From a virus, in IMG/VR virus record IMGVR_UViG_3300031857_000638, positions 1 to 35,952 of that record: DNA of 35,952 bases. One strand, written 5' to 3'. The notes beneath the pieces were generated by a model. The model was given only the letters and a program-made list of their open reading frames with translations, searched no databases and was not told the DNA's origin. Of the stretch, positions 1 to 20,900 are shown piece after piece (position 1 is the first letter of the stretch; every line of letters starts with the position of its first letter). Made by a program: the position numbers and the translations under genes.

Positions 1-782
1 TCAGATAATTGTTTTGGTTCGTGGTGTTCAAATGTTTCCCATAACTTTAATAGTTCATCAAAGTCCTGAACTTTATTATAATCCCAATCAGTTAACATAG
101 TTAAGTATGTTCCCAATCTTGCACCATAGATAGCCCATTGTCCGTTCTCAACATCCATGCCTACGTTATGCCATATAGTAAGGTTGTTTAAATTTCGTGT
201 AGCAACATTTTTCTTAAACAAATCTACATCAGGTTTTTGTCCACTAACCAAACACATTTTTACACCTTCACGGAATCCAGCACGCCATGCTTGAAAGGGA
301 GTATAGTTTGGATATGTTGTAGAATAACAATCATACATACTCCAATAAGAACCATTTAAATAATCTAAACAAAAATCAATAGTTGTAGTAACATTACCAC
401 CGCTATTTTCATGCGTTTTCATATTTTTTACATAAGTTTTAGTCCAGCTACTTAAGCCGCCATTGCCATATTGCAATCCATTAATTACATTTCTAGCTTT
501 CCATCGATACTGTGCGTGTTGATAACTTTCGTCCTTATTTGTAAAATCTAATGTTAAGTTAAAAAAATTAAAATCAGGTAAATTATCTCCGTCAATTAAA
601 ATAAATCTTTCTGTATCACTTTCTTCTGCCGCAGCTTTGTGTGCAGCATCACTACCCTTAACTCCGTCAACTCTACGTGCCCAAGGTATCATGTTTTGAA
701 TTTTAACCCAAAATTCTTCTTTTTGTGGTTCATCATAACTTAGGTAAATGCAATCTAAGTCTGCAATATCAATTACGTTCAT
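1..782 (-). CDS. Glycosyltransferase-like protein, C-terminus cut off by window edge
   Basis: An open frame runs from ATG at 780-782 to the left edge without a stop, so about 260 N-terminal residues are visible. Around residues 34-67 there is a pattern I associate with phage GT-A type glycosyltransferases: an IPWARRVDGVKGSDAAHKAA stretch, then an acidic run leading into the hydrophobic strand ILIDGDN with a DxD-like motif at D64-G65-D66. DxD motifs bind the metal and nucleotide-sugar in such enzymes. The start overlaps the end of the upstream 96-aa gene by 14 bases, and I see no Shine-Dalgarno sequence, so translational coupling is likely. It is the last visible gene of a compact group behind the tail-fibre genes. 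The enzyme class is inferred from the motif; donor and acceptor are unknown. Confidence 0.75.
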   Translation of the reverse strand, partial: MNVIDIADLDCIYLSYDEPQKEEFWVKIQNMIPWARRVDGVKGSDAAHKAAAEESDTERFILIDGDNLPDFNFFNLTLDFTNKDESYQHAQYRWKARNVINGLQYGNGGLSSWTKTYVKNMKTHENSGGNVTTTIDFCLDYLNGSYWSMYDCYSTTYPNYTPFQAWRAGFREGVKMCLVSGQKPDVDLFKKNVATRNLNNLTIWHNVGMDVENGQWAIYGARLGTYLTMLTDWDYNKVQDFDELLKLWETFEHHEPKQLS

Positions 783-1059
783 TTAAAGTTAAGCTCCATT
801 TTTTTGAATTAGGTCCATTATGAATTATGCTAATATCATTGATATGGCAACTTGTTCCATTTTGACTAGGGTTAAGTTTAGCAATTAGCTTTTTATCATA
901 TATACTTACAATTTTTTTATCAATTATTTTAATGTCAAATCTTGATTGAAAATATGTATCAGAATCAATGACGATAAAATTACCATCTAACTTTTCACAA
1001 GTATAAAATAATGCTTTTCCAGCATCATCATAGTATAATCTAAATTCAGGTAAGTTCAT
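769..1059 (-). CDS. Small conserved-type hypothetical protein (96 aa)
   Basis: A 96-residue protein opening with LPEFRLYYDDAGKALFYTCE. It has alternating short hydrophobic and charged stretches that suggest a small beta-rich domain, and no signal peptide or membrane segment. Similar small proteins with an RxYYDDxGxxLFYT opening are, from memory, common hypothetical genes in marine T4-like phages; no function is known to me. It overlaps the upstream glycosyltransferase-like gene and the downstream partial gene by 14 bases each, so it is almost certainly translated as part of this operon. An AGAG sequence lies directly before the ATG, too close for a classical ribosome binding site, which again points to coupling. 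A role linked to the flanking sugar-transfer genes is a guess from position only. Confidence 0.75.
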   Translation of the reverse strand: MNLPEFRLYYDDAGKALFYTCEKLDGNFIVIDSDTYFQSRFDIKIIDKKIVSIYDKKLIAKLNPSQNGTSCHINDISIIHNGPNSKKWSLTLNERN

Positions 1060-1843
1060 TCTCTATTATATTACAAAAGTTTTTTATATGATAATGAAAT
1101 GGATATAGTTGCGGATATGTGCTTACTCTTATGTTATTATGGTTAACCTCATAAATTAATTCTTTTGTCCAATCTTCAGATTGCAAATCGTTTATGTATT
1201 GTTTCATGTGAACCATACTAAAAGAATCAAATTTTGGTAGGGTGGTATTCTCTACCCCATGTATATGACAGGCTATAGCATATACCCAATCAGTAGTTGC
1301 TTTCTCATTAATGTTACATTTTAACATAGGCTTTAAACTTTCCCAGTTTTCAAAACAATGTTTAATCGTTTTAAAAAAGTTTTCTGCAAACTCTCCTTTT
1401 TTAAAATATGTCATTGCGTTATACACATTTGGAAGACTATTATTTGTGATAAAACCCCTATAAAATAGGTTATCGCTAATTTCTCCTCTAAAGTTTCTAA
1501 TAGTTGATGATACAACGACTTCATTTAACTGTAATGTATCCCACCAATAATCTATGTTAATTGGTACATACATATCTGCTTCTAATTTGATAGTTTGATC
1601 ATACGGGCTAGCCTCATAGACTTGCCAATCGTTAGATAATTTCCAAGATGAATCTTTGTCCAAATCACCGTAGGGTAAAGCTATAACGTAATCAAAATAT
1701 CTACTGTATTCTACATCATCAGTAATAAGTGCTATACTTGCGTTAGGCATTACCTTTTTTATACTTAGTGCAAGCATTTCTGCACATTTTACATAATTTA
1801 TAGTTTTTGTATTTTGTGCTAAAACAACATATCCTTTAGTCAT
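1046..1843 (-). CDS. GT-A glycosyltransferase-like protein, paralogue of the next upstream gene
   Basis: A 265-residue protein with the start of a nucleotide-sugar transferase fold: a first beta strand (KGYVVLAQNTKTINYVKCAE), a second strand ending in ALITDD near residue 41, and the segment YEASPYDQTIKLEADMYV, where L-E-A-D-M sits at the position of the metal-binding DxD loop. Its neighbour (253 aa) shares the same order of motifs: KGxxxxAxN, IxYVKxA, LITD, SPYDxTxxL, then FKK. The two are therefore paralogues. It overlaps the upstream gene by 8 bases and the downstream gene by 14. GGAAA before the ATG can serve as a ribosome binding site. The classical second aspartate arrangement differs from the neighbour (EAD against DVD), so its catalytic competence is uncertain. 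The substrate is unknown; modification of tail fibres or host glycans is inferred from location. Confidence 0.75.
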   Translation of the reverse strand: MTKGYVVLAQNTKTINYVKCAEMLALSIKKVMPNASIALITDDVEYSRYFDYVIALPYGDLDKDSSWKLSNDWQVYEASPYDQTIKLEADMYVPINIDYWWDTLQLNEVVVSSTIRNFRGEISDNLFYRGFITNNSLPNVYNAMTYFKKGEFAENFFKTIKHCFENWESLKPMLKCNINEKATTDWVYAIACHIHGVENTTLPKFDSFSMVHMKQYINDLQSEDWTKELIYEVNHNNIRVSTYPQLYPFHYHIKNFCNIIENELT

Positions 1844-2597
1844 TGAATATTTCCATAAAGTTATTTTTATCTAGCATATGAAAATCCGTATCTTTTATCA
1901 AAATATATTTTGTTTTTTCTTCACGTAAAATAATTTTATATTCTGTTTCGGATAATTTTTCGACAAACGTATTCTCACCAATATGAAGTAGATTCCAAGG
2001 AATATAATTTGAAATATTTTCTATGTGACCATTTATTATCCTATTTGCTATTGCAAAAGCATGATCATTTCTAAATGTAGTAGACCACATTCCATGCAAA
2101 TCTACATAATGTTGATAATTTTCTTGAACCATTTTAACAGATTCAAACAAATGCCTTAATCTATCAGTTTTTTTAAAAAATAAAACTGTAGCCCATAACG
2201 TGTTAAAACTTGAAGATCCTAATTTTTCTTGTTCAAAATTAGGATACATTAAAAAACTACTAGTGTTGTGAATACAAAAATCATCATAAAAATCAAATAC
2301 TTTCAGTAATTTTGATGAGTTTATGACGTAATCTACATCCAATACAAGTGTTTCATCGTAGGGAGAAAGATTATATGCATTATACCTTCCCTTATTATTC
2401 CAAACTTTTTGTCTTTTAATATTTGAACTGTCTTTTTCTAAATAAATTATATTATCAAATTTAAAAGTTGTTTCTGCATCTGTTATAAGAGTGCATGGTA
2501 AATTTAAATAATCGTTGACTTTTCTAGCGGTAATGCTTGCCATTTTAACATAATCTATTTCATCATTGTTAAAGGCAAATAGTAATACGCCCTTCAT
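1836..2597 (-). CDS. GT-A glycosyltransferase-like protein, paralogue of the adjacent gene
   Basis: A 253-residue protein sharing the motif order of its 265-aa neighbour: an N-terminal strand KGVLLFAFNN, then IDYVKMA, LITDA, and SPYDETLVLDVDYV carrying a D-V-D motif, followed by a TVLFFKK segment. This is the layout of a small GT-A type transferase in which the DxD coordinates the metal and sugar nucleotide. No signal peptide or membrane segment is seen, so a cytoplasmic enzyme is expected. The start ATG shares bases with the stop of the upstream 101-aa gene (ATGA overlap), and the end overlaps the next gene by 8 bases, so the group is translationally coupled. Such genes near tail fibres in marine T4-like phages are usually left as hypothetical. 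The fold assignment is by motif only, and the substrate is unknown. Confidence 0.75.
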   Translation of the reverse strand: MKGVLLFAFNNDEIDYVKMASITARKVNDYLNLPCTLITDAETTFKFDNIIYLEKDSSNIKRQKVWNNKGRYNAYNLSPYDETLVLDVDYVINSSKLLKVFDFYDDFCIHNTSSFLMYPNFEQEKLGSSSFNTLWATVLFFKKTDRLRHLFESVKMVQENYQHYVDLHGMWSTTFRNDHAFAIANRIINGHIENISNYIPWNLLHIGENTFVEKLSETEYKIILREEKTKYILIKDTDFHMLDKNNFMEIFND

Positions 2598-2899
2598 CGT
2601 TTTTTTCTTAATTCAGTCCATTCTTCATGCCATTCAGTCATAACATTATGGTATATAGAATGGGCTTTTATACTTAATGATTCTTTATTAACCTTAATTG
2701 GATTTTCATGCAAATCTAATATAACAGTTTCAATAAGTGTAAGGGAAGAAAGAAAACTTAAGAAATCAGGTGTGGCTTTCCAAAGCCCGCCCTGATCTGC
2801 AAAAATTAATTTACTTTGATATTTTTCTTTGAGATAGTGTTTAGCCAAATTATGATCAAATTTGGCTTTTGATTCTTTAATTAGTTCATCTGTATTCAT
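2594..2899 (-). CDS. Small conserved-type hypothetical protein (101 aa), fibre-region gene
   Basis: A 101-residue, mostly helical, charged protein beginning MNTDELIKESKAKFDHNLAK and ending in a basic tail (ELRKKR). I chose the ATG at 2897-2899; a TTG directly upstream (2900-2902) would add one residue and has no support. From memory, small proteins with the SKxxFDHxxAKxxLKEKYQxK opening and a central GGLWKxTP motif occur beside tail-fibre genes of marine T4-like phages; their function is not known to me. An assembly helper for the preceding fibre proteins is possible but unproven. The stop overlaps the ATG of the next gene (ATGA). No Shine-Dalgarno sequence is visible, and a late-promoter-like octamer sits only 5 bases upstream of the start. 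Confidence 0.72.
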   Translation of the reverse strand: MNTDELIKESKAKFDHNLAKHYLKEKYQSKLIFADQGGLWKATPDFLSFLSSLTLIETVILDLHENPIKVNKESLSIKAHSIYHNVMTEWHEEWTELRKKR

Positions 2900-2904
2900 C
2901 AAAA

Positions 2905-2912
2905 TATTTAGA
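2905..2912 (-). promoter_or_regulatory. Weak late-promoter-like octamer before the 101-aa gene
   Basis: The minus strand reads TCTAAATA, one mismatch from NATAAATA, in the 35-bp gap after the 332-aa gene. With T4 late geometry the start would be at 2899, the A of the ATG. The mismatch and the AT-rich background make this tentative. Confidence 0.35.
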
Positions 2913-2934
2913 ATACAGAGCGACTATGAAAAAA

Positions 2935-3933
2935 TTAACTGCCTGAAACTGTGCTGCTTATGGAAACATTTCCCCAACTGGGTGATAGGTATGAACTGCT
3001 AGGAAGTCTAGCGACACACGTTACAGTTGAGTTTGGTCCTGATAAACCTAAAGAAGTAGTACCGCCATCCGGTAATGAATCCCAAGTTGTAGTAATTGTT
3101 AAAATACTTCCAGTATCACCATTTGTACCTTGAGCACCATTTGTTCTAGCTTGTACTTCAATAAAACTAGAAAGATATCCAGTTGGACCTACAGTTGCAC
3201 TCATTTTAAAAAGAGTAGCATTAGTACTAGTAAGCGCATAATAACCATTATTTGAAGCTATTGTAGTTGGTGTTCCACTCCCACCTGTTCGTGTAACTCC
3301 GCTAAAATTTGTGCCTGCAATATTTTGTGTACCGCTGTTTACTGCACTTATTGTGATTGTACCGCATGCTGAGGCAAGAGTATTCCACAAATTATTCATA
3401 TTCGTTCCACTAGGGTGTGAAAAACTTAAGGCTAATTGCCCGCCTGCATTAAAGAAATATCTTGCCTTATCACCTGAATCAAACGATATAGTATGCGTAA
3501 ATGTTAATTTAGTACTCCATGAAGAAGCATAAGTGCGAGTATTTGTAGAGGTTGATCCTTGCGCTGCTGCATTATTTCTGTTTGTAAAAATAGTATTTAA
3601 ATTGTTTGCGAATATAGATGTTGCAGGCACACTTGCTGTCATGTATGCACTAATTAATTGACCATCTGACGTTATTGAAATAGGAGTAATTGTACTGCCT
3701 TGGTGAGATGCAATATTCTGTATATTATTAATCAAAAAATTCCACTGTTCGTTTGTTACTTTAAAAAGCGAATTGTTCGCAGTAACTTGATCGACTGCAG
3801 TTTGTCCTAATCCGGATCTACCATTACCTATTGCCAAAACTGCATTTAATGTGTTAGCTGTAGCGGTTGGATTTGCACCAACATATCCATTATAGTCAGA
3901 AGCATCAATTCTTTGATTTTGTCCGTAAGTCAT
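2935..3933 (-). CDS. Tail-fibre-like virion structural protein (332 aa)
   Basis: A protein rich in Ser, Thr, Asn and Gly with almost no charged clusters, typical of beta-structured phage fibres. The first ~80 residues are more helical (AVDQVTANNSLFKVTNEQWN near 47-65). The middle holds TFTHTISFDSGDKARYFFNA followed by GGQLALSFS (about 144-172), a motif I know from structural proteins of marine phages. The C-terminal part contains a collagen-like NGAQGTNGDTG stretch (about 265-275) and ends in Ser/Thr-rich strands. The start at 3931-3933 has a GGGG ribosome binding site 6 bases upstream, which overlaps the end of the 397-aa gene region. The two genes are only 10 bases apart and likely cotranscribed. 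A role as short fibre or fibre-associated adhesin is inferred from composition and position. Confidence 0.8.
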   Translation of the reverse strand: MTYGQNQRIDASDYNGYVGANPTATANTLNAVLAIGNGRSGLGQTAVDQVTANNSLFKVTNEQWNFLINNIQNIASHQGSTITPISITSDGQLISAYMTASVPATSIFANNLNTIFTNRNNAAAQGSTSTNTRTYASSWSTKLTFTHTISFDSGDKARYFFNAGGQLALSFSHPSGTNMNNLWNTLASACGTITISAVNSGTQNIAGTNFSGVTRTGGSGTPTTIASNNGYYALTSTNATLFKMSATVGPTGYLSSFIEVQARTNGAQGTNGDTGSILTITTTWDSLPDGGTTSLGLSGPNSTVTCVARLPSSSYLSPSWGNVSISSTVSGS

Positions 3934-3943
3934 TATATTCCCC

Positions 3944-5137
3944 TTACTTAATCACAACAATTGCTGTAACTTCACCGATGCCTTCTGATGTTTTTGTAGT
4001 AAGGCTTCTTCCTATGACATTAAATGAACCTGCTTCGCCGTCTTTTGCTGCTCTTGCATAACCTTTTCCAGCACTAACAAGACGATCACCTTTTTTAACT
4101 TTACCTTTTACTTTTACTGGAACTCTACCACTAATAGCAACTGCAGGGTGTGTATTATCATCTCCTGCTGCACTGTTCATCATATACGCTGCGCTTGTGC
4201 TGATTACTCCAAATACATTATTACTCAATTCATCAACTACCGCTGTGATTTCAGCAACACCGCCCAGTTCAACCACTGTCCCAGCATCGTAAGGTTGATC
4301 CGCTTCAAAACGTTCCGCTAAGTCAGCATATGTAGCTTGCAATCTAGCACTAGGACTAAGCTGCCAAATACCAGTAATATTGCCGCCACCTGCTAACTCG
4401 CTAGTTGTAACTTTGTTAGGTGCAATGTTTCCAGTAAATTGTGTCACTGCATTCGCCCCGGTAAGATAATCGAATACATTTGCATTAGTATAAGTACCAG
4501 CCGGATTAAATGGTACACCATTACCATACATGTACCTATCGCATTTTATACCAAATGAATTAGATGTCCATGATATATTACCATTTTGCATAGTCCAGTT
4601 ACCTTGTGCTGACCATGCCCCTACAATAGTACCACCTGTTGTAGCACCACCTGTTGTAATTGAAGTAGTATTGGCTGATCCTAATCGTGCGACTGTTAAA
4701 TTTGCATTTGCTGCAAATAAATTACCTGTAACATTAGCTGTAGTTACTGTAATTGAATTACCGATTATAGCGTTATTAGATGTAATATTGTTTGCAATGA
4801 TATTACCAGTTGCATTAACGTTAGCTAAGGTTGCATTACCTGCTGCTGTTGTAGATGTTAATGTAATCCAATTACTTGCTACAAGGGTACCATCAGCTGG
4901 ACATATACTTAATGTGTTTGTGGTTGTATTAAACCATAGTTGTCCTCTCAGAGGATTAGGGGGAGGAGAACTTGAGGCATAACTTTCAAGCTGTCTAACA
5001 AAGTTTGTATCTAAAACTTGTCCGTAATTAGACTTGTTTCGTCCAGGAAGTCCCAATGATGTACTATTGGTATTAATTGTACCGTCTTGAATTGTTGTTA
5101 GTACAGTACCGTCGCTTCGTATAATTGTATATGCCAT
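3944..5137 (-). CDS. Tail-fibre protein with repetitive shaft and conserved C-terminal domain (397 aa)
   Basis: The N-terminus (AYTIIRSDGTVLTTIQDGTI, then a LWFNTTTNTL motif near 67-76) is one I associate with fibre proteins of marine T4-like phages and probably attaches to the virion. Residues about 95-165 form a repetitive Asn/Ala/Thr-rich shaft (ANVNATGNIIANNITS and variants). From about residue 268 a compact domain begins with ATYADLAERFEADQPYDAGT and continues with GRVPVKVKGKVKKGDRLVSA. It resembles C-terminal domains of other phage fibres, some of which act as autoproteolytic or trimerising chaperones; that activity is not shown here. The gene has its own late-type promoter right after the 206-aa gene and a GGAG ribosome binding site 9 bases before the ATG. 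Its likely role is host recognition. Confidence 0.85.
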   Translation of the reverse strand: MAYTIIRSDGTVLTTIQDGTINTNSTSLGLPGRNKSNYGQVLDTNFVRQLESYASSSPPPNPLRGQLWFNTTTNTLSICPADGTLVASNWITLTSTTAAGNATLANVNATGNIIANNITSNNAIIGNSITVTTANVTGNLFAANANLTVARLGSANTTSITTGGATTGGTIVGAWSAQGNWTMQNGNISWTSNSFGIKCDRYMYGNGVPFNPAGTYTNANVFDYLTGANAVTQFTGNIAPNKVTTSELAGGGNITGIWQLSPSARLQATYADLAERFEADQPYDAGTVVELGGVAEITAVVDELSNNVFGVISTSAAYMMNSAAGDDNTHPAVAISGRVPVKVKGKVKKGDRLVSAGKGYARAAKDGEAGSFNVIGRSLTTKTSEGIGEVTAIVVIK

Positions 5138-5166
5138 GTGTTTTTACTCCATTTTTTAAACTTTAG

Positions 5167-5174
5167 TATTTATC
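5167..5174 (-). promoter_or_regulatory. T4-type late promoter (GATAAATA) for the 397-aa fibre gene
   Basis: The minus strand reads GATAAATA, matching the T4-like late -10 element NATAAATA recognised by gp55. It begins directly after the stop codon of the 206-aa gene and leaves a leader of roughly 24 bases, with GGAG in place, before the ATG at 5137. Three other copies in the window occupy equivalent positions before late structural genes. Confidence 0.75.
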
Positions 5175-5795
5175 TTATATGGTAACAAGGTTTGTTAAAC
5201 TTTGAATACGCACTGTGTAATCTATTTGAATCTGTCTATTAAGACTTTTTTGAACCGGATGAAAAATGACATGGGTCAATAGTCTTGTGGTTTCGTTTCC
5301 GGCTGGGTCAGTGCCATAATCTGCTAAAAGCCCAATTTCATCAAACGTATAAGTAGATTCTAACTGGGTACTATTATCAAATGCTGCTTGGCCAGCTGGT
5401 TCTCCGTAGTCGAGTAAGCACTGAACTACTATATCACTGTAAACTTTTCCTATTATGTGCGACACGACCATTTTATTTCTTGCAGGATCTGTGTTTAGAA
5501 CACTGGTGTCATCTACAATTTTTTCATAAGTTTGATTATATAATGCTGCATTTTGACCTGTCGTATTAGGTGGTAAATATGTAATAATTCCGGTGCTATC
5601 GATGCTTGCTCCGCCGTTTCCAAACGCCATTTTAAAAATACCACCATATCCCCTACTACTTAATGTATCAGCGATGGATTCTGACATATTTTCATAATGT
5701 ATTGCATTTTTTTTGTCAACAAGAATCTCTCCTGTATTAGGATCAGAAATTTTGACGAAACCTTCTATTTTTAATTGATAATTTATTGTAGACAT
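5175..5795 (-). CDS. Virion structural protein, tail/baseplate-associated (206 aa)
   Basis: A 206-residue protein with an N-terminal strand-rich motif GFVKISDPNTGEILVDKKNA (residues 12-31), followed by IHYENMSESIADTLS and a GGIFKMAFGNGGASID motif. The order of motifs is one I recognise from structural proteins encoded near tail fibres in T4-like marine phages, where the exact role is unknown. The ATG overlaps the stop of the upstream 48-aa ORF (TAATG), and AGAGG sits 9 bases upstream inside that ORF, so translation is well supported. Residues 13-29 resemble the C-terminal half of the 48-aa product. The ORF probably depends on the late promoter at 5948-5955. Attachment of fibres to the baseplate is a plausible but unproven role. 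Confidence 0.8.
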   Translation of the reverse strand: MSTINYQLKIEGFVKISDPNTGEILVDKKNAIHYENMSESIADTLSSRGYGGIFKMAFGNGGASIDSTGIITYLPPNTTGQNAALYNQTYEKIVDDTSVLNTDPARNKMVVSHIIGKVYSDIVVQCLLDYGEPAGQAAFDNSTQLESTYTFDEIGLLADYGTDPAGNETTRLLTHVIFHPVQKSLNRQIQIDYTVRIQSLTNLVTI

Positions 5796-5941
5796 TAATC
5801 ATCGCCTCTTTTTTGGACTAAAACTTCATTAGTTTTAGGATCAAAAATCTTAATAGCTGAGCTAAAAATGAATCCCGCATTTTCATCGGGTCTTTGCTCC
5901 TCTTTTATTTTTGTGTCAATCGTGTTATCTTTTTCAGTCAT
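5795..5941 (-). CDS. 48-aa ORF resembling the N-terminal motif of the 206-aa protein
   Basis: A 48-codon ORF with ATG at 5939-5941 and TAA at 5795-5797; its stop shares one base with the ATG of the 206-aa gene (TAATG). Its first 20 residues are charged (MTEKDNTIDTKIKEEQRPDE). Residues 29-45 (AIKIFDPKTNEVLVQKR) align with FVKISDPNTGEILVDKK of the neighbour, with nine identities over the KI-DP-T-E-LV-K pattern. It is either a genuine small protein or a remnant of a duplicated gene start. There is no Shine-Dalgarno sequence, and the late promoter just upstream would start transcription at about 5942, making this start leaderless from that promoter. Readthrough from the giant gene upstream could also supply it. 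Coding status is moderately supported by the family-like motif. Confidence 0.55.
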   Translation of the reverse strand: MTEKDNTIDTKIKEEQRPDENAGFIFSSAIKIFDPKTNEVLVQKRGDD

Positions 5942-5947
5942 AATATG

Positions 5948-5955
5948 TATTTATC
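5948..5955 (-). promoter_or_regulatory. T4-type late promoter (GATAAATA) for the 48-aa ORF and 206-aa gene
   Basis: The minus strand reads GATAAATA, 6 bases before the ATG of the 48-aa ORF and 8 bases after the stop of the giant gene. With T4 late promoter geometry (the element ends near -6) the start site would be about 5942, immediately before the ATG. The mRNA would thus carry the 48-aa ORF as a leaderless cistron, or as an untranslated leader for the 206-aa gene. Confidence 0.7.
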
Positions 5956-5963
5956 ATCAGTTT

Positions 5964-8900
5964 TTAGTCGCTTTTTAAGAAATTAGCTGGTACAGAGTTA
6001 CTTATCTGTAATGGATCCCCTGAGGCTGCATAGTCATCAGAATTCCAAACTTTGTTATTATAGAAAGAATCTAGTATATCTTTAGTAGATAGACTAAACA
6101 CATAAGAATAGGTGTCATGAACAGGAAGGGCTGCTGTCCCATCTACCCCTCTTGTTATTCCAGATAACGTATTAGTACTGATATTTGCGAGTTTAAATGA
6201 TATTTTTTCCCCATTTATAAGAATCGCCTTACCAAATCGCAAAGTAATTACCAAATTATCCCCTAAACTTACATCATCTGTGAAAACTATCTTAGTAACA
6301 GAATTTACAGTGTCCAAATAATATTTGGATTGGTTTAATATAATTTCAGTAGTTTCGTTATAAATTGATAGTAACACAATATCAACTATACTATAATTTA
6401 AATAGACAAGTAGTTGATTATTCACATTTTGAACAATAGCGTTTGTTGTTTCATCGTCTAATAATGTAGTTATGTCATTAACATGAATTTCAGTATCAGT
6501 CGGGTACAATGGGTCAACTAACCAAGTTCTATTTTGAAGGTTACTATTACTAATAGTCATACTACCTTTCCTATCAACCTGAAGTGAATACCAAAGTTCA
6601 TTTGGGGTCGGGGAAGGCATGAAACTCGTAACTATAATTGTATTACCTAAACTGATAGGAGACATAATACTTAATCTATTGTTAGGCTGATTTATTCTTA
6701 AATTGTCTGGGGTAACTCTAGTACCGTTGATATGTACAAACAATCTATTCACATCAACAACATCAAATGTTGGTTGAGTCAACTGAATAGTATTTGTGTA
6801 TTTCCAAATATACCCACCTGATCCTACCCCATTAATAAAATAAGTACCAAAAGTATTTCCAATTACAGGTATTGACATGGTTGAATCTAAATACAGTTCA
6901 AATGGATAATACGTTACTGCGTTTTCAACATATGTGGGTAAAGGTCTTACATAAAAAATATTATTATTAATTTCTGGTATGTTTTGAACTCCGTCGATTA
7001 AAACTTGATCTTGATCAACAAAATTGGGATTAGTTGCTGTAGTAATTATCACCGGAGTTGCAGGGGTATTTACATAATATATAGGAGTAACTCGTATAGT
7101 GGTAGATGTTTGCGTCACAAAATATTGATTTTGCGTATCGTTAAATGATGTTACACTCACTATAGTTGTAGCAGGTATAGAAGGTAGTATAGTTAAGGTG
7201 TTACCTACAATAGTATAATCAATCGTGTTTCTTGCACGAATACCATCTACTTCAACTACTGCATTAGTAGCATTGCTACCTCCCATAAAGTTAGTTAAAG
7301 TAAACACTTGTGGCCCACTAGTGTATTGAAATACCTGAGTTTCTGGCATACAATATTGGTACGAATTTGTAGTAGTAGGACCAAATATAGCAAAACTTAC
7401 ATATTGTGTTGTAGAATCTACTATTGAATCAAAAATTATTCTAATTGAATTTGATTTATTTGGCTCTATTCTGTAATCAGTGTTTAATGTTTGTTTTACT
7501 CCATTTATATAAACCACAGAAAATAAATAAACTCCTGATCTAAATGGATATTCTGTGTCAATATAACTTTCATTTTTTTCAGTATCTAATTTGATAGGAA
7601 TAGTGTCTGATGTTCCTTTTGATTGTTGATTTCCTCCACCAATATCATAACACTCAAAATAAATTTTTTCCGTTGGAGAAATAGGAGATGTCAAAGTAAC
7701 AGTTTTGTTTACCCAATTAATTGTTTGAATTTTTGTTAGGCTAGTTGCGGTTGGTACATCACTTACTTTATAGATTCTAGTCGCTCTGGTGTTTGAAGAA
7801 GATATAATATATACCGCAATTTCTGTCACAAATGGTGATATACCTGCAAATGAAAACTGAGTGATATTTTCAGTTTCTATAGTCACTCCTACCATATTAA
7901 AACCAAAATTATCATATACGCCTGGGTCCCAAAGTGAGCCTGGTGTAGTTTTGACAATCATTTGTAAATTATCAGAAATCACAGCAGGAACCATTTCTTC
8001 TGGTCCATAACCCGACAGGAACGTTTCTCCCTGAATAGTGTATTGAGGTTCTTCTACAAGTAAAAATGAAATATTTTCCCAATCAATTATATTTCTACTT
8101 CTTAAAATTGTTGAATTTTCACCGACTACTATTAAATAAGTACCATCAAAACTTATTTCATTTAAAGTATTAACTGTAATTGTAGCTGTTTGGTTCCAAA
8201 CTTGACCATCACCGCTGTATAACACAATACCGTTATTTCCAACTAATACGTAAGTGTTTAATGCAAATATACCATGATTAATTTCTGTAGTAAACACAGG
8301 ACCTAATATCGTTGCAGGATTCCAGTTACTAGCATTGACTGACCAATATATTTTACCTAACTCCCCTGCTGCAATAATTTTTGTGGGTGAATTAAAAACT
8401 GTGTTAAATTTTGCGTCAATTGTTTGATTTGTGTTTGTCCACTCTATACCGTCATAGCTTATAATTACTCTTGATTGTTCCTCAAAAACTGGTGAAGGAG
8501 TATTTGCCCCTTCAATGACTGAAGTACCACTACCAACTGCGACAAATCCTTCAAATATGAGGCCTGATCCAGAAATATAACTTACAGATTTTAAAACATT
8601 TGGCAATCTACTTTGAAAACTAAACCCTGTTCCCCAACTTGTTGCATTAATACTGGTTAAGAGGTTGCTACCTACCGCCACATAGTTATTATTGTAATAT
8701 GCAACACTATAAAGCTCATCGTTCGGAGTTTCTACAGAAAGTGTATCGAACCCTGTAACATCAAAAGGTGCGTCATCAAAAACAGTATAAGACCCAACAC
8801 TTACCCAATTATATCCATCATAACTAATAAGTAAAGGTGCACTAGAATTTTGAGCGGAAATCACATAAAAAGAACCTGAATAAATTATACTTGTTACATT

Positions 8901-11900
8901 TAAAGGAACATCACTAATCTTTTTGAATAACCAGTCTCTTCCGTTCGTGCTATATAAAACTGTAGCATGATTTGGTGTATTACCTACAGCGACATATTTC
9001 ATTCCATCGTACACTATACTCTTTATATCAATTTCTTTTGGATAAAATGGCTGCCCCTGTAAATTAACATCTAATTCAAAATCTTCATCAAACTTATTAC
9101 CTAAATTAGTTCCGTTAGGATATTCTAAGCCTGACAATAACAAAGGTAAATAGTTACCTGGCATGTTACCTGTAGGTTGATAGTATGTAACTATTCTATC
9201 AAGTGCATTAATTCCTAAATAGTCACTTTGCAACAGTTCCCATTTTGTAAAATCAAATGTGCTATCGCTATTTGCAACGATGCACTTATACAATTTATTA
9301 TTGTAGGCTACTAGCGAAGCTGATGGTGTTGTAAATGGTTCCGGATAAAATCCGATATCCCCTGTGGTAAATATAAACGGAGTTCCAACTGTATTCTTTA
9401 CTGGATCTGTTAATATTGAATTGTAATATAATCTGCACTGAGTAGCTGTTATGGGCACAGTATAGTATTCGGCATAAGCGTTAGCACAGATTCCACTAAG
9501 TGAATAAAATACTATGCCTCCTGATTGAGCGAAGGTAACTGTTATTATCAAATCATTAGCAGGGCTAGTACCTCCTAATAACGATCCTGAAATAGTAATT
9601 TTATCACCGGTTGTGTAAATATTTCCAAAATCTTTTATATCAATAAAGTACTCATTAAGCACAGTTTGTCCATAAATCTTAGGACTAGTGACCCAAATAA
9701 TTGCACCACCTGATCCAGAATTATCATATATGTATGGAGTTGTTAATCTACTAGTCTTGTAGAAATATAATTTTGTTTTATTTAAATATCCTGCACTTAA
9801 TGTACTAGCAGCATAGTTAAAAGTAACAATTACATTGTTAGTACCTGTCTCAGTCGTAACGTTAGTAATAGGAACTGTTGCACCTTGTAAACTGGACCTA
9901 AAAACAGTAGAAGGGATTCCTTCTACTACATACTGAGTTATTGATCCAGGAAGTGTAACTTGCGCAACAGTGATTGTACAACTGTTGAGAGGTGCGGTTC
10001 CGCCTAAAGAAGTACCAGGTATAGTAATTACGTCACCAACTTGATAGCCTAACCCACCACTATTAAGGTCTGCAGTATAGACTCCATAAGTATTTCCTGA
10101 TGAATTAAAATTAGGTGGTTCATCTTCATTTCCATATATCCAAGCGTACACATTGAATATAGCACCGTTTCCTCCCGGCGGGGCTACAGAACCAGAAACA
10201 GAATTATAAGGTATTGCAGTTGCTAATCTACTTCCGTAACTTGCATCATTTCCAATACTGTTATAATCAGAGATGTAGAATTGATTAGGGGCCCAAGGTT
10301 GAACTACTGGGGTATAACTTGTTCTATCAAACTTCAAGATAGGAGTAATTTGTCTTGTAGGAGCATTACTTGATATTGGGATTAATCTAGCTCCCAGTGA
10401 TAGAATATGATTATCACTTGGTGTTTTACTTTGAACTAAACTTAATCGATACGTATCATTTATAGCATTAATTTTTGAAATGTAAAATGCTATTGCAGTT
10501 GGTCTGTTTTCGTTAGCTAAAGTAACTGTGGGTTTTTGCAGCCCATATTCAATTAGTCTAATGTAATAATATTGCTTATCAATCAATCCTAAAATAGGAG
10601 TTACATTATCACCTTTTCTATACTGTAATAAGTCTCCTGTTTCAAAAAGTTTGAAAGGAACGTTTACGGTATTATTTGTAAAATTAATATCAGTAGAGTC
10701 AAATTTATGTTCTATCGCTGGTTCAATAATGAGTTCTGGTAGAACTTTATATCCTTCACCTGAGTTTAAAATAGTAACTGCAATGACTTCATCTCCTGAC
10801 ATTTGTGCTTTGATCGCAGCTTGAACCTTAGGAGCAGGAAAAATTGAAGTATCAACATATGTGATTATATTAGGTGGTTCGGTATAGGCTCTGCCTGCAT
10901 ACAATACAGTTACAGCAGGTAAGTCAATATAAATTTTAGTACCCGGCATGTGTTCTACGACTTCGGTATCAAATGCTCCGCGTGTCAGTCCTGATAATAT
11001 ACCTAAATCTCTATCAACTTGATTATATCCGATGAATTCGTTATCTATTTTTATAACACCTGTTACAGGATAGCCAAATGCATTGTCTACGATAATAACT
11101 TTAGTTGCGACTGGCACATATGCTTTTAACAAACCAATAAAATAATTTGGTCTTCCTTGTAATTTAACTCCATAATTATTAAACCACTGATTGTATTGAG
11201 TTTCATCCCATATAGGATCAGTAGTAGTATATTGTGAGTCTTTTGTTGTATCACCAAAAACTAGCTCAGGTGTTACGAATGAATTTAATTCAGCATTCCA
11301 CTGAGAAGGTAAATCAAAATCAGTTATATTACCATCATAGATATTTGTTTTTGTATATTTTAAACTAAATTCTTTTAATTTTACTCTATATGGTTTAACT
11401 TCATTAATGTATCCATATAGAAAATCTTCATTGTCTCTTTGGAAATTTTTAATTTGTTCCAATTCTCTTAAGGTATGTTCAACATCTAAGAATGATGTTT
11501 TGTTTAACCAAGGCAAGTAATTACCAAATTCATCACTTTCGGTGATTATATAATTAAACAATAAAATTAAACCTTGATTTCTATAAATCAGCAAATCATC
11601 AGTAAATACTTCTTCATTTAATCCACGAATTATATTATATGTTTCGACAGAGGGAAACGTATCATAAGGATCGCTATCAAAAAAGCTATCACCGAATCCT
11701 ATACCATTAATGCTGTAATTCCAAAGCGAGTCTTTAATTTGAATTGTACCTAATTCTAACCCTATTCTCTGCCAAGAATTTACTCTGTAAATATAGACCT
11801 CACGTTTTCCGTTACTGTTAGAATTTACTCCGACTATCATATTTTCATACGGAGTTAGTTTTTCTAAATCGTAATATTTGGCAACATCAATATCAGTTTT

Positions 11901-14900
11901 TGTTGAGTCTGAATAACCTTCCTCCCACCAATTCACATATTCCCAATAATTATTTGTATCAAAATTATCACCCGAAATTGTAAAGAATGCAGGGGCATTT
12001 ACACCTGTTATTGCGGATCCGCCTAATGATAAGAAACTTGGATTTTTTAATTCTGTTATTGGAAACTTTATCATTACATTATTTGCAAATTGAACATAAT
12101 TTTGTAAAGCTTTTAATCTATTATAGAAAAAACTTTGATTAGGTCTTAAATTAGTTCCAGTTTGTAATAATCTAGGCAAGAATGGGTTAGGTACTGCTTG
12201 ACCTTGTGCATCAACACCAGCAAAACTATCTAGTAATTTTCTGTATAGTCCGTCTGGTCTTACAAGATTGTTGTATAGTGTTGGCAGTCCTGGTAAGAAA
12301 TCTTCAGCATAACCATCTCTTATTAATTTAAATTCAGTGTGTGCAACATCATTACCTAAGTTAGACTTAAATCCTAAGTGTAAGCTAGTAAAGTTTGAAC
12401 TAATATATTCAGATACATTATACAAACCAAATACGTTTTGCTTTAACGGTGCTAAAAATGCTATGCCTGAACTAATAGGATTGGATATGTATGATGAAAT
12501 GATATTATCAGAAAGCGTCTTGTTCGCACTTATTACATTGCCTATATTTTTTACCCAATAATAATATCTTGTAACAATTGTGCCGCCATTAATTACCTCA
12601 TAAAGAGTAGTGTAAGAATCAATATCATATACTGTCCCAACACCGGAATAATCGATAGGCAACACATCACTTTCTATCCAAGTATAAACCGAAACAATAC
12701 TGCCAGGAAATACACTACCCCAATATTTGCTATTATAAACTATATCATTTTGATGATAATCAATAAATCTTGTTTGAGAGGTGTCGAACCAAAGCTTACC
12801 AACATACTGTTGTCCCCAAACAACTTTTGTAGAACTATTATTGTTATATCCTGCAGGATCTACACTTGAAATATAATCAAGATTTTCTCTTACAGCTCCC
12901 AATAGTTTGCCCTGCAAAGGATCAATATAATCTAAATTTACAATATTTAGGCTATTAAGATTGTTGTAAATAGAAACTATGTGTAATGAGTCAATATCAA
13001 CACTTTGATTAGGATTTCTATAAACACTCCAGTCAGACGCATTAGAGTTGTTTATAAAAATGTTCGCACGACCATTTTCACTTCCTGTTAAATAGTTCGG
13101 AGAACCAATAATAACCTTATAGTCATTAAATGCTATAGAGGTTCCATAATATGGTACACTACCAATATTAGTAGAAGTATCGTTAAGGAGCTGCGCTAAT
13201 ACAAAATTTCCTATATTGTTTATACTTTCATTGTATGCTCCTAAATAATCGTACATGTAAGCAGAACCTGCTTCAACTAAAATATCTACAAATATAGTAA
13301 AATTATTATCAAATATGGTATCGTTTGTGTAATCTTCATCGTCAGTAAAATCAAAATTTGTTTGAGTGTACCTATTGCTCGTAGGAGCAGTAACTACAAA
13401 AGAATTAAATTCATTGAATTTAAGTGCGGATCCATATTGCGTTGCGTTTTGAATATTAGGATCGTGAAACTCTTGTGTTTTTTGATAATATGTGATTCCC
13501 AAACTAGCATAATCAGCTTCGGCAAAAACAGTTAAATTAAGTTTATCTCCGGATGTATTGAGATTTTGATTTATAAGTTGAATTACTAATTTATTATCTA
13601 TTGTTTTTGAAGCAGTTACGTTTGGTATATTCGCTTGTATTATAGCACTTACAGCGCCATCTATACCTGTGCTAGGTAATGTTACAAGAAAACCATTTAT
13701 TAAAATATTTTGCTGCGTTGAAAGTGAATACGCAGTTGAGCCAGTTATTATTCCAAATTTTTTGCCTGCATTAGTATAACGGTAAACGCTTCCTTCAGTA
13801 CCTGTAGCATCAACTATGTCGAACGGAGCACCAATTAATAGTTCATTACCAAACGTATTAATATCCAATCCTTTACCATAAAGCATTCCGATTCTAGGAT
13901 TAGAAACTTGGCTATGACCAATTAGTGTCTGAGATAAAACAAAATCATTTCCTTCAACTGTGATTAAATCGCCGGCGTTAATTTGAATATTAATAGTCAG
14001 TATATTAGTAGAAATAGTATAGTTACTTGTGCTTAACACAACACCATTTCGTAATACTGTCACTGAATTTACAGGAGTCCATCCTAATGTGAAGCTTGTA
14101 GTTAATGTAAGTATTGAATTGAAATTGCTTTCAAAAACCTGTCTAATTCTATTGTAAACATACACGGCTCCTGTATCTGTAACAGCATTAAAATCTTGAT
14201 TTGGTGCGCTTACAAATAATTGAGTTCCATTATAATTGGTAGCAATGTTTGATCCAAAATTTGTTGCCGATCCAGCACCAGTAATTGTTGCTACATTAGT
14301 GTAATTGTAATATGCTCTATAAACTATAGTACCTGCAGTAACGCCTGCAAAAAAGTAACCATCAATTGTAAAGGTTGTGGTGTTTGCTGAAGAACTATAT
14401 GTACCAGTTATTATTTTATAAGTTTGAGCAGTATCAGCATTAGAAAAACTAACCATTTGTCCTTCTAACAATAATGACCTTCTATCACCGCTTACAGTAA
14501 ATTGTGTGCCATTCTGCTGTATAGCTGTTGTTAAAGAATAGCCTATGCTTGTATAGGTTAAAAACGTATTTCTTCTATATGCAAAAACTTGTCTGGTTGA
14601 ACTTTTTCCAACAAAGAAATAATTACAATCATCTGACATTACTACTTTATCTGTAAGTCCGCTTACGTTAAAAGAATTTTGTAAAGCAACAGCTTCAATT
14701 TTTTCTGTTTGAACTAACTCATAAATGTACACTGTGCTTGTCGCTGCAGATTTTAACACTGCTAAAAAGTTTTGTTGCTTATCCATACTGGTACCAAAAC
14801 CAGTTGGGCTTGACGATAGTGTTATTGTTTCTTCTAAATTCCAAAAGTTTACATTTGAAATATACTTGTATCTGTAAATGTTTCCTGCACCCGAATCAGC

Positions 14901-17900
14901 TATAAAATATCCAAGCTTAGTGTCATAAGCAACACTACTTCCAAAGGTTGTAGTAGGAGATGGCTTAGTAAATGTGGTTGTACCTAAATAGTTAATTGAT
15001 TTTCTATAAACCGCCCATGTACCATCTATATTTTCGTCTACCCAAACAGTATTTTTTACAAATTCTGTATCTAATAAATTTAAATTTATAATATCTTTTG
15101 GTGAATTTACTCTTTGATTTTGTAATTTAGAAACGATACCTGTTGATTCTATATTTGGTATAGATAACGGTAAGCTCAAATCAATCACAACTGAGTTTGC
15201 ATTACCTATTTTTACAACAACGTGAAAACCGTCTACAGCACTTGCATAATTCAAAATTAATATTACAGAATTAACTGTTAAGCCGTGAGGTTTGCTGAAA
15301 AATACTGTACATGTATCATTTAAATTATTAACAACATTTACAATAGAAATTACGTCAGTAGAATTACTTAGAGAAATGGTTGCATAAGCTTTCCAATCTC
15401 CCTTAAAATCAGCTATCCATACATATTCATTTTTATAAACATCATTAATTGAAACTAGATTTTGATTTAAATTCGTTACCTTATATGAATGCATTTTGAC
15501 ATCTTCAAAATTTACATATCCAGCTGAAGGCAACTGATTCATTTTATAAGATGGTAATAAAGGTAAAATTCTTATATTTTGCGGGACACGACCATAGTTA
15601 GTCAGTCCATACAGAGGTATTTCTTGCATCGACCCTGGTTCAGATTCACCATTTATTACACTAATGATTGAGGGATTTCCGTTTAACTTTTGTTCTTCAA
15701 GCTTAAATTCAATAAAGTTTTGATCTAATACACCGCCGTAGTTTCCAACATTTATAGACCAATTTTCATAAACAGTATAGTTTATTCCTCCTGTAGGCAA
15801 ACTTATATTTTGAATTGCAGAAGTGGCTTGTTTACTTCCTTTCTCTACAATCATAGTTTTATATAAATTTACTTGAGATATATCATCTAAATTAGCAGCG
15901 ACTAGGTAATTTCTTGGTCTATATCCAATAAGAGAAAATGCTAATAAATCCGCATCATTTTCCAAATTTGCAGTGTATGAATTATAATATAAAGTGCTTT
16001 CATATGCTCTGCTACTTGCATTCGGTAATAACCCTTTTTGTATTTCATCATAATCTACTTTTGTCCAAAATCCTTGTTGAAAGGTATCTGACGGTTGGAT
16101 TATTTCATTAGCAGCGTAATAATTATTTTTATATTTGACGATAATACCTTTAGTATATTTGGTATTGATTTGCCATTCCAAAACATTGTCTTGATTTAAA
16201 ATAAAACCCTTAGTATCAACTGTGCCGTCCCACGTAGCAGTTTTTGCTCCTTTTAAAAGCATACGATACTGTCGTAGACCTGTATTAGGATCGTAAATTA
16301 AATCATTAAAAAGTGTAACGTTATCAAACACAATCGCATGTTCCATATTACTAAGGTTAGCATTAAGGTATGCAATAGTATCATCAACTTTGATTGGAAT
16401 CGCAGAGAATTCAACACCATTACGAATAACTGACATATCCTTAATTTGTATAGGAATCAAATTCTGATTCAAAATGTAATTTTGTTCTTGAATAGTAAGA
16501 GGTTGTACAATAGAGTTTTCTTTGTCTATAACAATCTTTTTAGCTAAAGGATTTATATTTAGTATTGAACCTGTTTCCCACCCTGCTTGTATCCATGCAA
16601 GAACTTCTTGAATCATAGTGTTCCAATTGAGAATTACATTATTTTCTACTTGATCAAATAAGAGTCCCTGAGAACTTAAATAGTTTCCATACCCATTTAT
16701 AAATTCTGCTAAAGCCTGCGGCGTACTAAACTCTGTACTGTAAGGTACAATTATCACTCTATCACTAGAATTTTTTGATATTTTTACTGATAAAGATCCA
16801 GACGTAATTGTTTCGTATTTACCATTTACTAATGGAGCCAATGCTTTAAAATAAATTTTGTTTTGGCTATTTCCATAAACCTGATATCCTGTATCAGTTT
16901 TTTGAATTATAATTGAACTATAAATTATTGTGTCAAACGGCTGATTTTCATGTAATAAAACACTATAGCTTTCATCTGGTATTAGTAGAGTATTATTTTT
17001 GCTATTCGGTGAGCCTTTGTCTACATAAAACTTCAGCAATTCTTTGTCACTGAATCCAGCTAATCTGTATACCAAACGAACATCTAGATTGTTTAAATAA
17101 TTTGTAAGTAGATCATAACCTGAGTTACCAGTACTCTGTACATAATCTACAATCCAATTTATATAACTATGTTGTGCTGTTCCACTACCATACACAACGG
17201 TGCCTGTTGTAGTAAATCTAAATTTATCATTTAACAAATATTGATTAAATTCTGTATTATATTTGTAGGTATCTAAATTTTCACCCAATGCAAAAAACTT
17301 TGCTGGCTTACATAACGCTAAAATTTTAACTAAATCAAAAGGCCAAGTGCTACTTTTTAGATAACTATATTCGGCAGGCCCCCAATCACCTACTTTCCAT
17401 TGAGTTTGAAAGGTTAATTCATCATAATTACCTATAACGGAATTTAATGGATCTACTAAGTTACCTAAATCATCTACTGGCAAAACTTTTAACAAACCTG
17501 GTCTTTTTCTAGACTCAATTATTATAGGATTACCGTCATTATAATCATAGCCATTTTCCATATCAGTCCACAACACCAAGTTATTTTTAGTATAAGGTGC
17601 TGCGCCATAATAGCCATCCCACCAAACTGGTTTATTAGTATATCCAATTAGTTCCCATGGAGTTAAGTTTGGAGTTGCAGTATCGAAAAACCAATTGTAA
17701 AGACCCTTCCAATTGCCTCTTTTTACAATTGTGTTGTCTAATTTATTTGTAGCTTGATAATAATTATATGTATATGGATCGGTTGTAATATAGTATTGTG
17801 ATTTGTAATCTATTCTATTTTGTCCTACCCAATTTAAAAAGGATAAAGAATATAATTGTAAAATTTCATCGTAATTATAATTTGTTTTTCTAAACTGTCC

Positions 17901-20900
17901 AGGTAAAATTTCATCACTTGATATAGGAATTCTAGAACTAACTTTTATATTATTATAAATTCTACATTCGAACTCAAAAATTACCTGATCTCTATAATCA
18001 GTAAGATTACCATTTGTATAACTTCCGTATAGCGTAGTTAACGAACCATCATGTCCTTTAATAAACCACGTTGGTGTTAGATAAGAAGAATCGTAAACAA
18101 CCTCAGGTACGGTTGCAGGATAAAATCCTAACTTAGTTGGTGTGTTTGGAACATAACTTCCATAAGTTTGGTTATATTCATTAACGACTATTACATCACC
18201 TGCGATTAAATCTGTTTGAACTGTTACTAAAGGTTCGTCTGCACTCACAGTATAATCGACATTTCTGATTAATTGTTTTTCTACTAGAACTCCCTCTACC
18301 TCTCTCAACACATAAAGAAGTACACCATTATAATTGGCAGAGCTAAAATTATAAATCTTACTTAAAGAAAATTGTGCTTGTTGTACATCCGCTTTAAAAG
18401 TATATCTATTAGTAATATACGCTCCTCTGTTTGGAAGCATGTCTGACCAAAAGAATGAGTTATTTTGAGCTTTAAAAGAGGTAATTTCATTAATAGCGTT
18501 ATCTAAAATAGTAGATGCTATTTGATAACTTTCATAAGGAGTTTTATTTACGATATCTATCAACAAACTTTTATACTTAACATATTCGTTTGCATTAAAG
18601 TTTAAAGCATCAATTAAATTATAATTTGCATTTTTTAACAAAGCTCCTGTCAATGACAGTGGAGCACTATTTTGAATAATTTTAGTTCCGTATCTAACTA
18701 GATTGGGCAAATCTCTATAATTGTTGGAACCAAAAATTTGACCTGTAATTCTTTTGCTGTTTGTGCAAATACTTAAGTAGTGATTTTTTAAATCTCCTAA
18801 ATTTAAATTTTTTATTTGTGCGTTGAAAATATTATTTTCTAAATTTGTGGGAATAGTAAAATATGCATTTTTACTAACTTGATTACTATAAATTAAAATT
18901 TGCACTGGTGTTTCTAAAATTGGATTAGCATTTAAAGTTACAATTGTAGTATTATTTTCTACTACATAACTAAATTCACTGTCAAATAATACATTATCTC
19001 TAACAGTAACTTTAATTACAGGCCATGCAGTAGATTCTGATGAATTTGCTGGTACATCACAAATAAATTTAGCATCTCCGTTTAAAGGATTGTAGTTAAA
19101 TGTGAACGCCTGATATTGAAAACTTTCTGATATAGCTGTTTGCCATCCTAACTCTCGATTATATGTGTCACGTGAATTATAATTATATACGTATCCTTCA
19201 TTAACATTTTGTGTAGTTGGGTTTCCATTTAATACATAGGTAAATTGATCCGTATTAAAAGAAACATCAAATTGAATATCTCCTATGTTATCTACTGAAC
19301 TATATTTTAAAGGAAATCCCAGTACGGGATCATTATTCCCTGTTCCAGTTGCATATTGAAATAAAGATGTTCCAATAAAACTAGAACTATTATAATAATC
19401 TGTATCACCAAAACTTAAACCATTAGTATCAAATACATCAAATAAAGGTGGCTGATTTACTGTTGTTTTGAGTTGTCCCTGAATCCAATTTGTTCCATCA
19501 AACCAATACGTATATCCCTTTCTTACTTGTCCTAGTAAAACAACAACTTGGTCAAGATTTTCTATGTCACCGTTCGCAATCTTTGTAAATGTTATGATTG
19601 GTGGTGCCTGTGTTAAAAGAACGTTCCCTGAATCATTGGATAATTGTATAAATGAACTTAAATTAGGGTCCGTGCTTAATCTAAGTGAAGTAGTATTAGG
19701 TTTATCGTACACATAATATTTGGTAAATGCAGATAATCCACCTATACTTTGATTCAAAGAAACTAAACTACCCACAACAAATTTCGTTGAATCAGAAACA
19801 GTTAACCTATCAGTGGAAGCAGACGTTGAAACAATTGTAGTTGATGTTTGTAGTGCCTCCGCAGTTGAAACAAAATTTACTCTAAAAATTTTGTTTCTAA
19901 CATTAACGTCTGTGTCCGCAGAAAATACGACCCGACAGCCGTCAAATAAACCAAAACTTGATCCGTCTGGATAATATTGCAATTGATTTGCAACTTGTGT
20001 AAAGGCGTCTGTAGCGGTTACATCAAAATAATCGACTGGTCCTCTAGCCTCAGTACCTAAATTAAATAATTTTAAATTAGGATAAAATTCAATAATTGGT
20101 CGTTTTGCTCTGGCTTCATTACTGTTAATTACGTTTAATAAATTACTACTATTAGTGTGTTTAATAGTTTCTTGTATTACTTGTGAGTGAAACCATCTAT
20201 TTCCGCGTGACCATGCATTTAAATTATTTGCTGCTCTACTAATTGTAATATAATCTTGTGCAATTGGTGATTCAACAATATCAGAGTATGGTGCTATATC
20301 ATATGGCGATATATCGTATGGATAATATACACTTTGAGAATATGATTCTGGAGTTACAAGTGATGAATTTGGTATTAATTTAATTCCTGTCCCTACACCT
20401 TCTACATAATATTGGTCATTCTTGTATTTCTCAGGAATAATATCTCCTGAGAAACTAATTTTTAAACCATTAGTAAATTTTACATTATTAGGAGAAGTAT
20501 AAGTTAACTTACCTAAAATTTCAGTTTCTACATTTATAAAATTTTCAGTATTGTTATCAACTATTTTTATTATGCCGAATTTTTTTAAATTAGAACTATC
20601 TTGATAATACAAAACATCTAAAGGAGCAGTTATTTCTGGAATAATTTGTATCTCACCAGTTTGTAAACGAACAAACTTTTTAGAAATATATTTGTTTCCT
20701 GATAAAACTGTTATATTCGTATCTTGTGGGATAACAGTTAGTGGAGTAAGACTTATTATAGGGTCACCTGGTATATCAGTTTCATTATAATTAACTTTGA
20801 AGAAAAATTGATTTACGTTGACAAATGTAGTAGAATCAAATCCTACAGGATTTATTGTATCCTGATCAAAAGGAAGCTCATCAAAAAATGTTTCTACCGA

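Follow-up and report, generated by a model that had tools for sequence, protein, structure and literature searches.

This study describes a predicted seven-bladed β-propeller of the Ycf48 type near the C-terminus of a giant protein encoded by a 35,952-nucleotide stretch of DNA (IMG/VR virus record IMGVR_UViG_3300031857_000638, positions 1 to 35,952; the whole stretch is referred to here as the window), the source of which is an uncultured large virus of bacteria. The propeller, residues 4258-4583 of an open reading frame (ORF) of 5279 aa, appears to be inserted whole, via short linkers, into a loop of a C-terminal domain of the giant, whose gene stands in the gp7 position within a baseplate cluster of the contractile-tail type. 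Both the propeller type and this kind of giant phage protein are known; the propeller is clearly present in some relatives and absent from others, and it has a parallel in the gp7 proteins of cyanophages. The giant, its propeller and the two halves of the domain that hosts the propeller are located as follows.

5964-21803, minus strand: giant gp7-position baseplate-region protein, ORF of 5279 aa, directly after a gp6-like gene
9033-9131, minus strand: upstream half of the host domain (GLEYPNG...), residues 4225-4257, recognisable also in five propeller-free relatives
8055-9032, minus strand: Ycf48-type seven-bladed propeller, residues 4258-4583 (repeat test, AlphaFold2, Foldseek and profile against the PDB)
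8904-9032, minus strand: blade 1, residues 4258-4300 (repeat profile and AlphaFold2)
8724-8903, minus strand: blade 2, residues 4301-4360, with a long low-confidence loop (repeat profile and AlphaFold2)
8601-8723, minus strand: blade 3, residues 4361-4401 (repeat profile and AlphaFold2)
8415-8600, minus strand: blade 4, residues 4402-4463 (repeat profile and AlphaFold2)
8298-8414, minus strand: blade 5, residues 4464-4502; in relatives, domains are inserted in blade 5 or between blades 5 and 6
8178-8297, minus strand: blade 6, residues 4503-4542 (repeat profile and AlphaFold2)
8055-8177, minus strand: blade 7, residues 4543-4583 (repeat profile and AlphaFold2)
7899-8054, minus strand: downstream half of the host domain (...QGETFLSGYGPEEMVP...), residues 4584-4635, recognisable also in five propeller-free relatives

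The seven repeats had been proposed in an earlier note on this DNA, made from its letters, and the closing tryptophans listed there (4291, 4333, 4390, 4455, 4494, 4536 and 4575) are exact at all seven positions; the range given, 8079-9011, lies in the right place but is slightly short, beginning inside blade 1 and ending at the last tryptophan, and the domain spans 8055-9032. The blades are uneven in length (39-62 aa). In a leave-one-out test, each blade and 1000 shuffles of it were scored with a profile of the other six; blades 1-7 scored 29.4, 7.0, 9.1, 8.8, 8.0, 20.4 and 22.5 bits, and the numbers of shuffles per 1000 scoring as high were 0, 3, 1, 0, 0, 0 and 0, respectively. The repeat is beyond chance, blades 2 and 3 being the weakest.

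As modelled by AlphaFold2 from an alignment of 40 sequences (A4), residues 4190-4720 have a mean predicted local distance difference test score (pLDDT) of 75 and a predicted template-modelling score (pTM) of 0.60, with seven blades of three to five strands each. The 10-residue blocks of the propeller lie at pLDDT 83-96, except for the first and last residues and for the long loop of blade 2 (about 4330-4359), where the blocks score 70, 47 and 40. Values below 50 are found in the flank 4190-4253, in two pieces of the blade 2 loop (4338-4343 and 4349-4358) and in the stretch 4585-4623. The ring is predicted to close, as judged via structural matches to closed seven-bladed propellers. The seven-bladed fold that had been anticipated thus agrees with a mostly confident model and with the seven-bladed propellers matched by both Foldseek and VIA-align.

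The family assignment, a Ycf48/BNR-type propeller of a different type from that of a second propeller upstream in the same chain, also held, on the A4 profile, Foldseek and Pfam searches of 40 members. Five PDB sequences were matched by the A4 profile at E <=1, all of them Ycf48 (E 1.3e-7 to 3.1e-6), and nine of the ten top Foldseek matches in the PDB were Ycf48, counting 8am5 chain S; Pfam searches of the 40 members at E <=0.01 returned DUF6242 for 16 and PF14870 (YCF48) for nine. The copy in the window, taken on its own, fell under all Pfam cut-offs: its searches against Pfam and PHROGs gave sub-threshold names only (DUF6087, DUF6242 and phrog_11523), and phmmer against the PDB gave one chance-like match and no Ycf48. 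The 50 rows listed by VIA-align (Z 28.6 to 25.3) are all propellers, of varied kinds and without one that stands out; virginiamycin B lyase (Z 28.6) and CylK rank first, and no Ycf48 is among them. Because all propeller folds are close, the assignment rests on the A4 profile and the order of the Foldseek matches and not on Z. Outside the PDB, S-SSM7 'baseplate wedge initiator' stood at rank 10 of the match list against viral models, and tblastn of the window domain in phages gave nothing at 1e-5; at E 10 it gave 17 records, of which ten bear the label gp7 or baseplate wedge initiator/subunit (four of these ten are S-CAM9 isolates and two are S-SSM7 records). A plasmid search matched four Thermus records, two labelled YCF48-related, and a genome-contig scan found only three Bacteroidota loci; reading the ORFs of one of these showed a Ycf48-like repeat protein of 730 aa.

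The insertion is seen in five relatives (loci L044, L071, L080, L082 and L083) that have a clean empty site, with a few residues between the flanks instead of the propeller. At the empty site the upstream flank reads NMPG or similar and then YPN...N.F, and the downstream flank reads QG..F..G(Y/F)(G/A)PEEL. Because the flanks of these five are joined by a few residues, the host domain can exist without the propeller. The giants of the carrier L062 and the non-carrier L071 are 61-79% identical over long stretches outside the site, and the downstream gene for a 206-aa protein is 96% identical between the two.

5175-5795, minus strand: 206-aa ORF (phrog_11259, annotated as unknown function)

A homologue of this gene follows the giant in six of the eight relatives compared: in three of four carriers (L035, L047 and L062, not L074) and in three of four non-carriers (L071, L080 and L082; the contig of L044 ends). 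In L071, L080 and L082, whose DNA extends far enough downstream, the next two genes are kept, the 206-aa gene being 80-96% identical to those of carriers.

The distribution of the propeller was followed among relatives that share a conserved core of the giant.

11169-12971, minus strand: conserved core, residues 2945-3545, used for the search for relatives and for the tree

The core profile found at least 598 stretches and at least 579 relatives, of which the best 80 loci were kept; their giant open frames reach 6632 aa (L076). At E <=0.01 the propeller profile matched 42 of the 80 and missed 38, 30 of these with a complete C-terminus and eight cut. A tree was made by a quick method from 92 core rows, 86 of them distinct; it has a midpoint root and is unsure in its long isolate branches. 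It gathers every row with a propeller into a single clade (support 100), which comprises 42 rows with the propeller, five without it and seven cut by contig ends. The other environmental rows, in two groups adjoining the carrier clade, include 24 without the propeller and one cut. Gains and losses were read by eye, and the propeller label needs 12 changes when cut rows are treated as a separate label. Within the carrier clade we infer that the propeller was lost; replacement through recombination is another possible explanation of the absences.

A scan of viral contigs with the propeller alone gave 72 loci: 65 in the giant family (core profile and downstream motif agree on this assignment), five that are like cyanophage gp7 (L184-L188) and two elsewhere (L179 and L183). 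The giant-family share is biased because the scan was seeded with that family. One of the two other loci, L183, encodes a phage protein of 2639 aa, several stretches of which match the cyanophage gp7 profile in its propeller part. A viral-contig scan with short propeller patterns found only one identical contig, which might be taken to mean that the propeller is unique; the C-terminal scan showed that close relatives retain it and had been missed by those patterns.

The giant belongs to a family of virion structural proteins of jumbo phages (PA5oct gp355, PBECO4 gp538, Atu_ph07 gp180 and that of Phosso; phrog_10938), with which its homology by blastp is piecewise and runs from the N-terminus to residue 3241-3544, the end varying with the isolate. 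The phrog_10938 profile 'virion structural protein' matches it in pieces between residues 3 and 3249, three chunks giving E 1e-70, 5.2e-110 and 4.1e-51. Like the giant of the window, the isolate proteins follow a gene labelled baseplate wedge in five of seven records, and the marking of PA5oct gp355 as ESI-MS/MS (electrospray ionization tandem mass spectrometry) in its record suggests by analogy that the giant is present in the virion. Unlike it, they have 3332-4555 aa and no match to the propeller profile, which at E 0.01 found none of the seven jumbo isolates (PA5oct, SCTP-2, Phosso, PBECO4, Vibrio 2.275.O, Atu_ph07 and XaC1).

The propeller is probably an optional binding module that is not needed for tail assembly. 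Its fold class, insertion, presence and absence, selection and lack of conserved catalytic residues were computed, and the further proposal that it is a host-facing, optional, non-enzymatic binding module of the baseplate, in which display and binding are what we infer, seems to us evenly poised. The propeller would be displayed on the exterior of the baseplate as a rigid, non-enzymatic binding disc and would touch a variable partner, most likely on the surface of the host cell during landing, and the giant may fold and assemble without it. Contact with the host surface is preferred because the domain is optional, because its surface varies across the clade and because a baseplate propeller of Staphylococcus aureus phages has been suggested to bind host glycans. 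The receptor-binding protein of phages 80alpha and phi11 carries a β-propeller 'platform' on the baseplate, comparable to the baseplate-region propeller of the window, and this platform has been suggested to bind GlcNAc of the host wall teichoic acid (PMC7048315). The staphylococcal propeller has five blades and is part of a separate trimeric receptor-binding protein, whereas that of the window is inserted in a wedge-position protein.

Over the 780 pairs of the 40 sequences, mean identity is 38% in the propeller and 60% and 47% in the flanks. Five overlapping pairs among five close carriers gave ratios of nonsynonymous to synonymous substitution (omega) of 0.066-0.088 for the propeller; by this computation the propeller is under purifying selection. 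Many relatives (L036, L047, L064, L074 and others) carry a further β-rich domain at a single site of the propeller, around blades 5 and 6. In the frame of L024, residues 3151-3230 are an 80-residue copy, 67% identical, of the frame's own residues 2686-2771 and lie inside blade 5, which is either real shuffling or an assembly artefact.

Several observations weigh against a host-facing role. The propeller of the window is 76-79% identical to those of five close relatives (two with the same sequence), similar to the adjoining segments; in L022 the propeller has 77% identity, compared with 80% before it and 74% after it. The synonymous divergence (dS) exceeds 1.7 and is saturated in four of the five pairs, L024/L025 alone being unsaturated (dS 0.87, omega 0.073). 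Close relatives thus diverge in the propeller about as much as beside it, and with most of the dS values saturated the data give no indication of diversification driven by a receptor. On the side of the host, psbA was found in none of 12 related records, most of which are fragments, so that this carries little weight. Finally, most of the facts used for host contact would also fit a docking role within the virion.

Such virion docking is a serious rival, and quite possible: the propeller may be a structural platform to which a tail fibre or an adjoining wedge subunit is attached, in the way that D1 is held by Ycf48. Ycf48, the closest relative with a solved structure, has a protein as its partner, D1, which it binds by way of an Arg patch (PMC10403576); the similar divergence of propeller and neighbouring segments and the location in a wedge-position protein also fit docking. 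Against docking stand the five relatives in which the propeller is absent and the site closed, and the retention of the next two genes in L071, L080 and L082 despite this absence. It is unlikely that the propeller is instead a neutral or relic decoration that was captured once, tolerated and is now being lost, as the several clean absences within the carrier clade and the domains inserted into the propeller of L024 and of many relatives might suggest, since the low omega (about 0.07-0.09) and a propeller still recognisable in relatives 31-50% identical to the copy of L059 indicate that it is being maintained.

A catalytic BNR/sialidase or other glycan-cleaving domain is highly improbable. The SxDGxxW hairpins of the window propeller, which we take to be Asp-box-like, and the SxDNGxTW of several relatives recall such enzymes. 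BNR sialidases have a conserved catalytic Arg triad, a Tyr/Glu pair and an Asp. In the propeller columns of the 40 sequences, Arg, Asp, Glu and His are never invariant or at 90%, the invariant residues being W, S, G and L only, and a sialidase proper is therefore unlikely; the Pfam and PDB profiles likewise give Ycf48 and DUF6242 and no sialidase family.

The Ycf48/HCF136 photosystem II assembly factor (PDB 2xbg, 5oj5, 5ojp, 5ojr and 8am5) has seven blades with the same kind of blade motif as the virus domain; in contrast to it, the virus domain has a low pI of 4.3, with 5 Arg among its 326 residues, lies within a giant tail-region protein and shows no sign of the D1-binding Arg patch. In an alignment of only middling confidence, R219, R220 and R237 correspond to e, n and d in the consensus of the profile, and R180, R196 and R215 were unplaceable. 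That the propeller is a viral Ycf48 copy acting on photosystem II of a cyanobacterial host is barely conceivable, for although Ycf48 is its sole sequence match in the PDB and cyanophages carry similar propellers, these differences and the finding of psbA in none of the 12 related records speak against it.

The gp7 position of the giant is given by its gene neighbourhood, which is a T4-like baseplate cluster on the minus strand with gp53, gp5-like, gp25, gp6 and giant genes in order.

30975-31280, minus strand: gp53-like ORF
25688-28588, minus strand: hub/gp5-like ORF
25219-25674, minus strand: gp25-like baseplate wedge subunit (PF04965, barely over the cut-off; phrog_43)
21815-25171, minus strand: gp6-like baseplate wedge subunit, directly upstream of the giant (phrog_10646, E 3.1e-245; phrog_219, E 5e-26)

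The giant lies directly after gp6, as T4 gp7 does, and is the gp7 equivalent by position. By hhalign, T4 gp6, gp7, gp8, gp9 and gp10 against nine chunks of the giant gave a best probability of 0.4, and T4 gp7 against four finer chunks a best of 0.2; because the positive control, gp6 against T4 gp6 with a profile, was itself weak (17.7), the missing T4 gp7 signal is no proof of non-homology.

The propeller profile also matches five of five cyanophage proteins, which were chosen from earlier tblastn matches. Three of them (S-SSM7, S-CAM9 and DSL-LC03) are labelled gp7/baseplate wedge ('baseplate wedge initiator/subunit') and have the same propeller type near the C-terminus of proteins of 3001-4107 aa. 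Between the giant and cyanophage gp7, hhalign aligns the propeller (probability 98.9, E 1.4e-17) and a second region with GGxGY-type stretches, residues about 3570-3806 of the giant (window 10386-11096, minus strand; probability 96.9, E 1.6e-10). The surroundings differ: the cyanophage propeller is flanked by GGxGY-type stretches, whereas that of the window is flanked by the YPN/PEELVP domain, and the core 2945-3545 of the giant was not found in the cyanophage gp7 proteins. Cyanophage gp7 is similar to T4 gp7 (hhalign 88.3), whereas no such similarity was detected for the giant, given the weak gp6 control; a T4-gp7-like motif pattern occurs in two of the five cyanophage proteins and is absent from the giant.

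It is tentatively suggested, although we consider it rather doubtful, that two distantly related groups, the giant-protein phages and the T4-like cyanophages, have independently plugged a Ycf48-type propeller into the protein at the gp7 position, and that lineages of the first group gain and lose it at one fixed loop, as an interchangeable specificity disc on the wedge and apart from the tail fibres. The blade register makes a tree of the ancestry of both phage groups' and bacterial propellers unsafe. A search of the literature by title and the start of abstracts, in which subscription journals were mostly outside the scope and absence is unproven, gave no paper describing a propeller for gp7 or for the giant family. 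The wedge proteins of baseplates tend to be regarded as structural. The presence or absence of the propeller at one loop of a wedge-position protein, together with the same type in cyanophage gp7, suggests that large phages may bear host-contact modules on the wedge, beyond the fibres. The idea is testable, since the relatives whose site is empty provide natural counterparts without the disc.

A second propeller lies further upstream in the giant.

13020-14996, minus strand: upstream propeller (residues about 2270-2928), FG-GAP type with integrin alpha as its nearest match; contains inserted domains

The model of residues 2230-2969 has a pTM of 0.84. In VIA-align the top five rows are integrin alpha (Z 33.4-30.7, the best being integrin alphaL), followed by WD40 proteins at Z 30.7; the first 50 Foldseek matches are mostly of the WD40 type, with some endosialidases and no integrin, and the FG-GAP repeats of PF01839 scored 11.7 bits, under the cut-off of 22.1. 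The upstream propeller, on the model, is best called integrin-alpha-like, and the claim of the earlier note that one chain contains two unrelated propellers stands, with the C-terminal one being of the Ycf48 type. The description of this pairing as unusual does not: both propellers occur in 42 of 42 carriers among the 80 core loci, and the pairing is the common state of one clade. By phmmer, the upstream region is present in all 42 loci with the second propeller and in both environmental clades of the giant family. Because it is also present in each of the five carrier-clade members that lack the second propeller, and in no fewer than eight outgroup-clade rows, the upstream propeller is the older of the two, and their different ages suggest different roles rather than two receptor sites. 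Beyond showing that the two discs differ, the analysis gives no support to the idea of two receptor-binding propellers with the separate ligands that had been proposed.

The remaining feature of the neighbourhood is an ORF beyond the 206-aa gene.

3944-5137, minus strand: ORF with a Peptidase_G2 autoproteolytic domain (PF11962, barely over the cut-off)

Positions 1-19,116 of the window, which include this ORF, are identical to part of a 56.8-kb IMG/VR contig.

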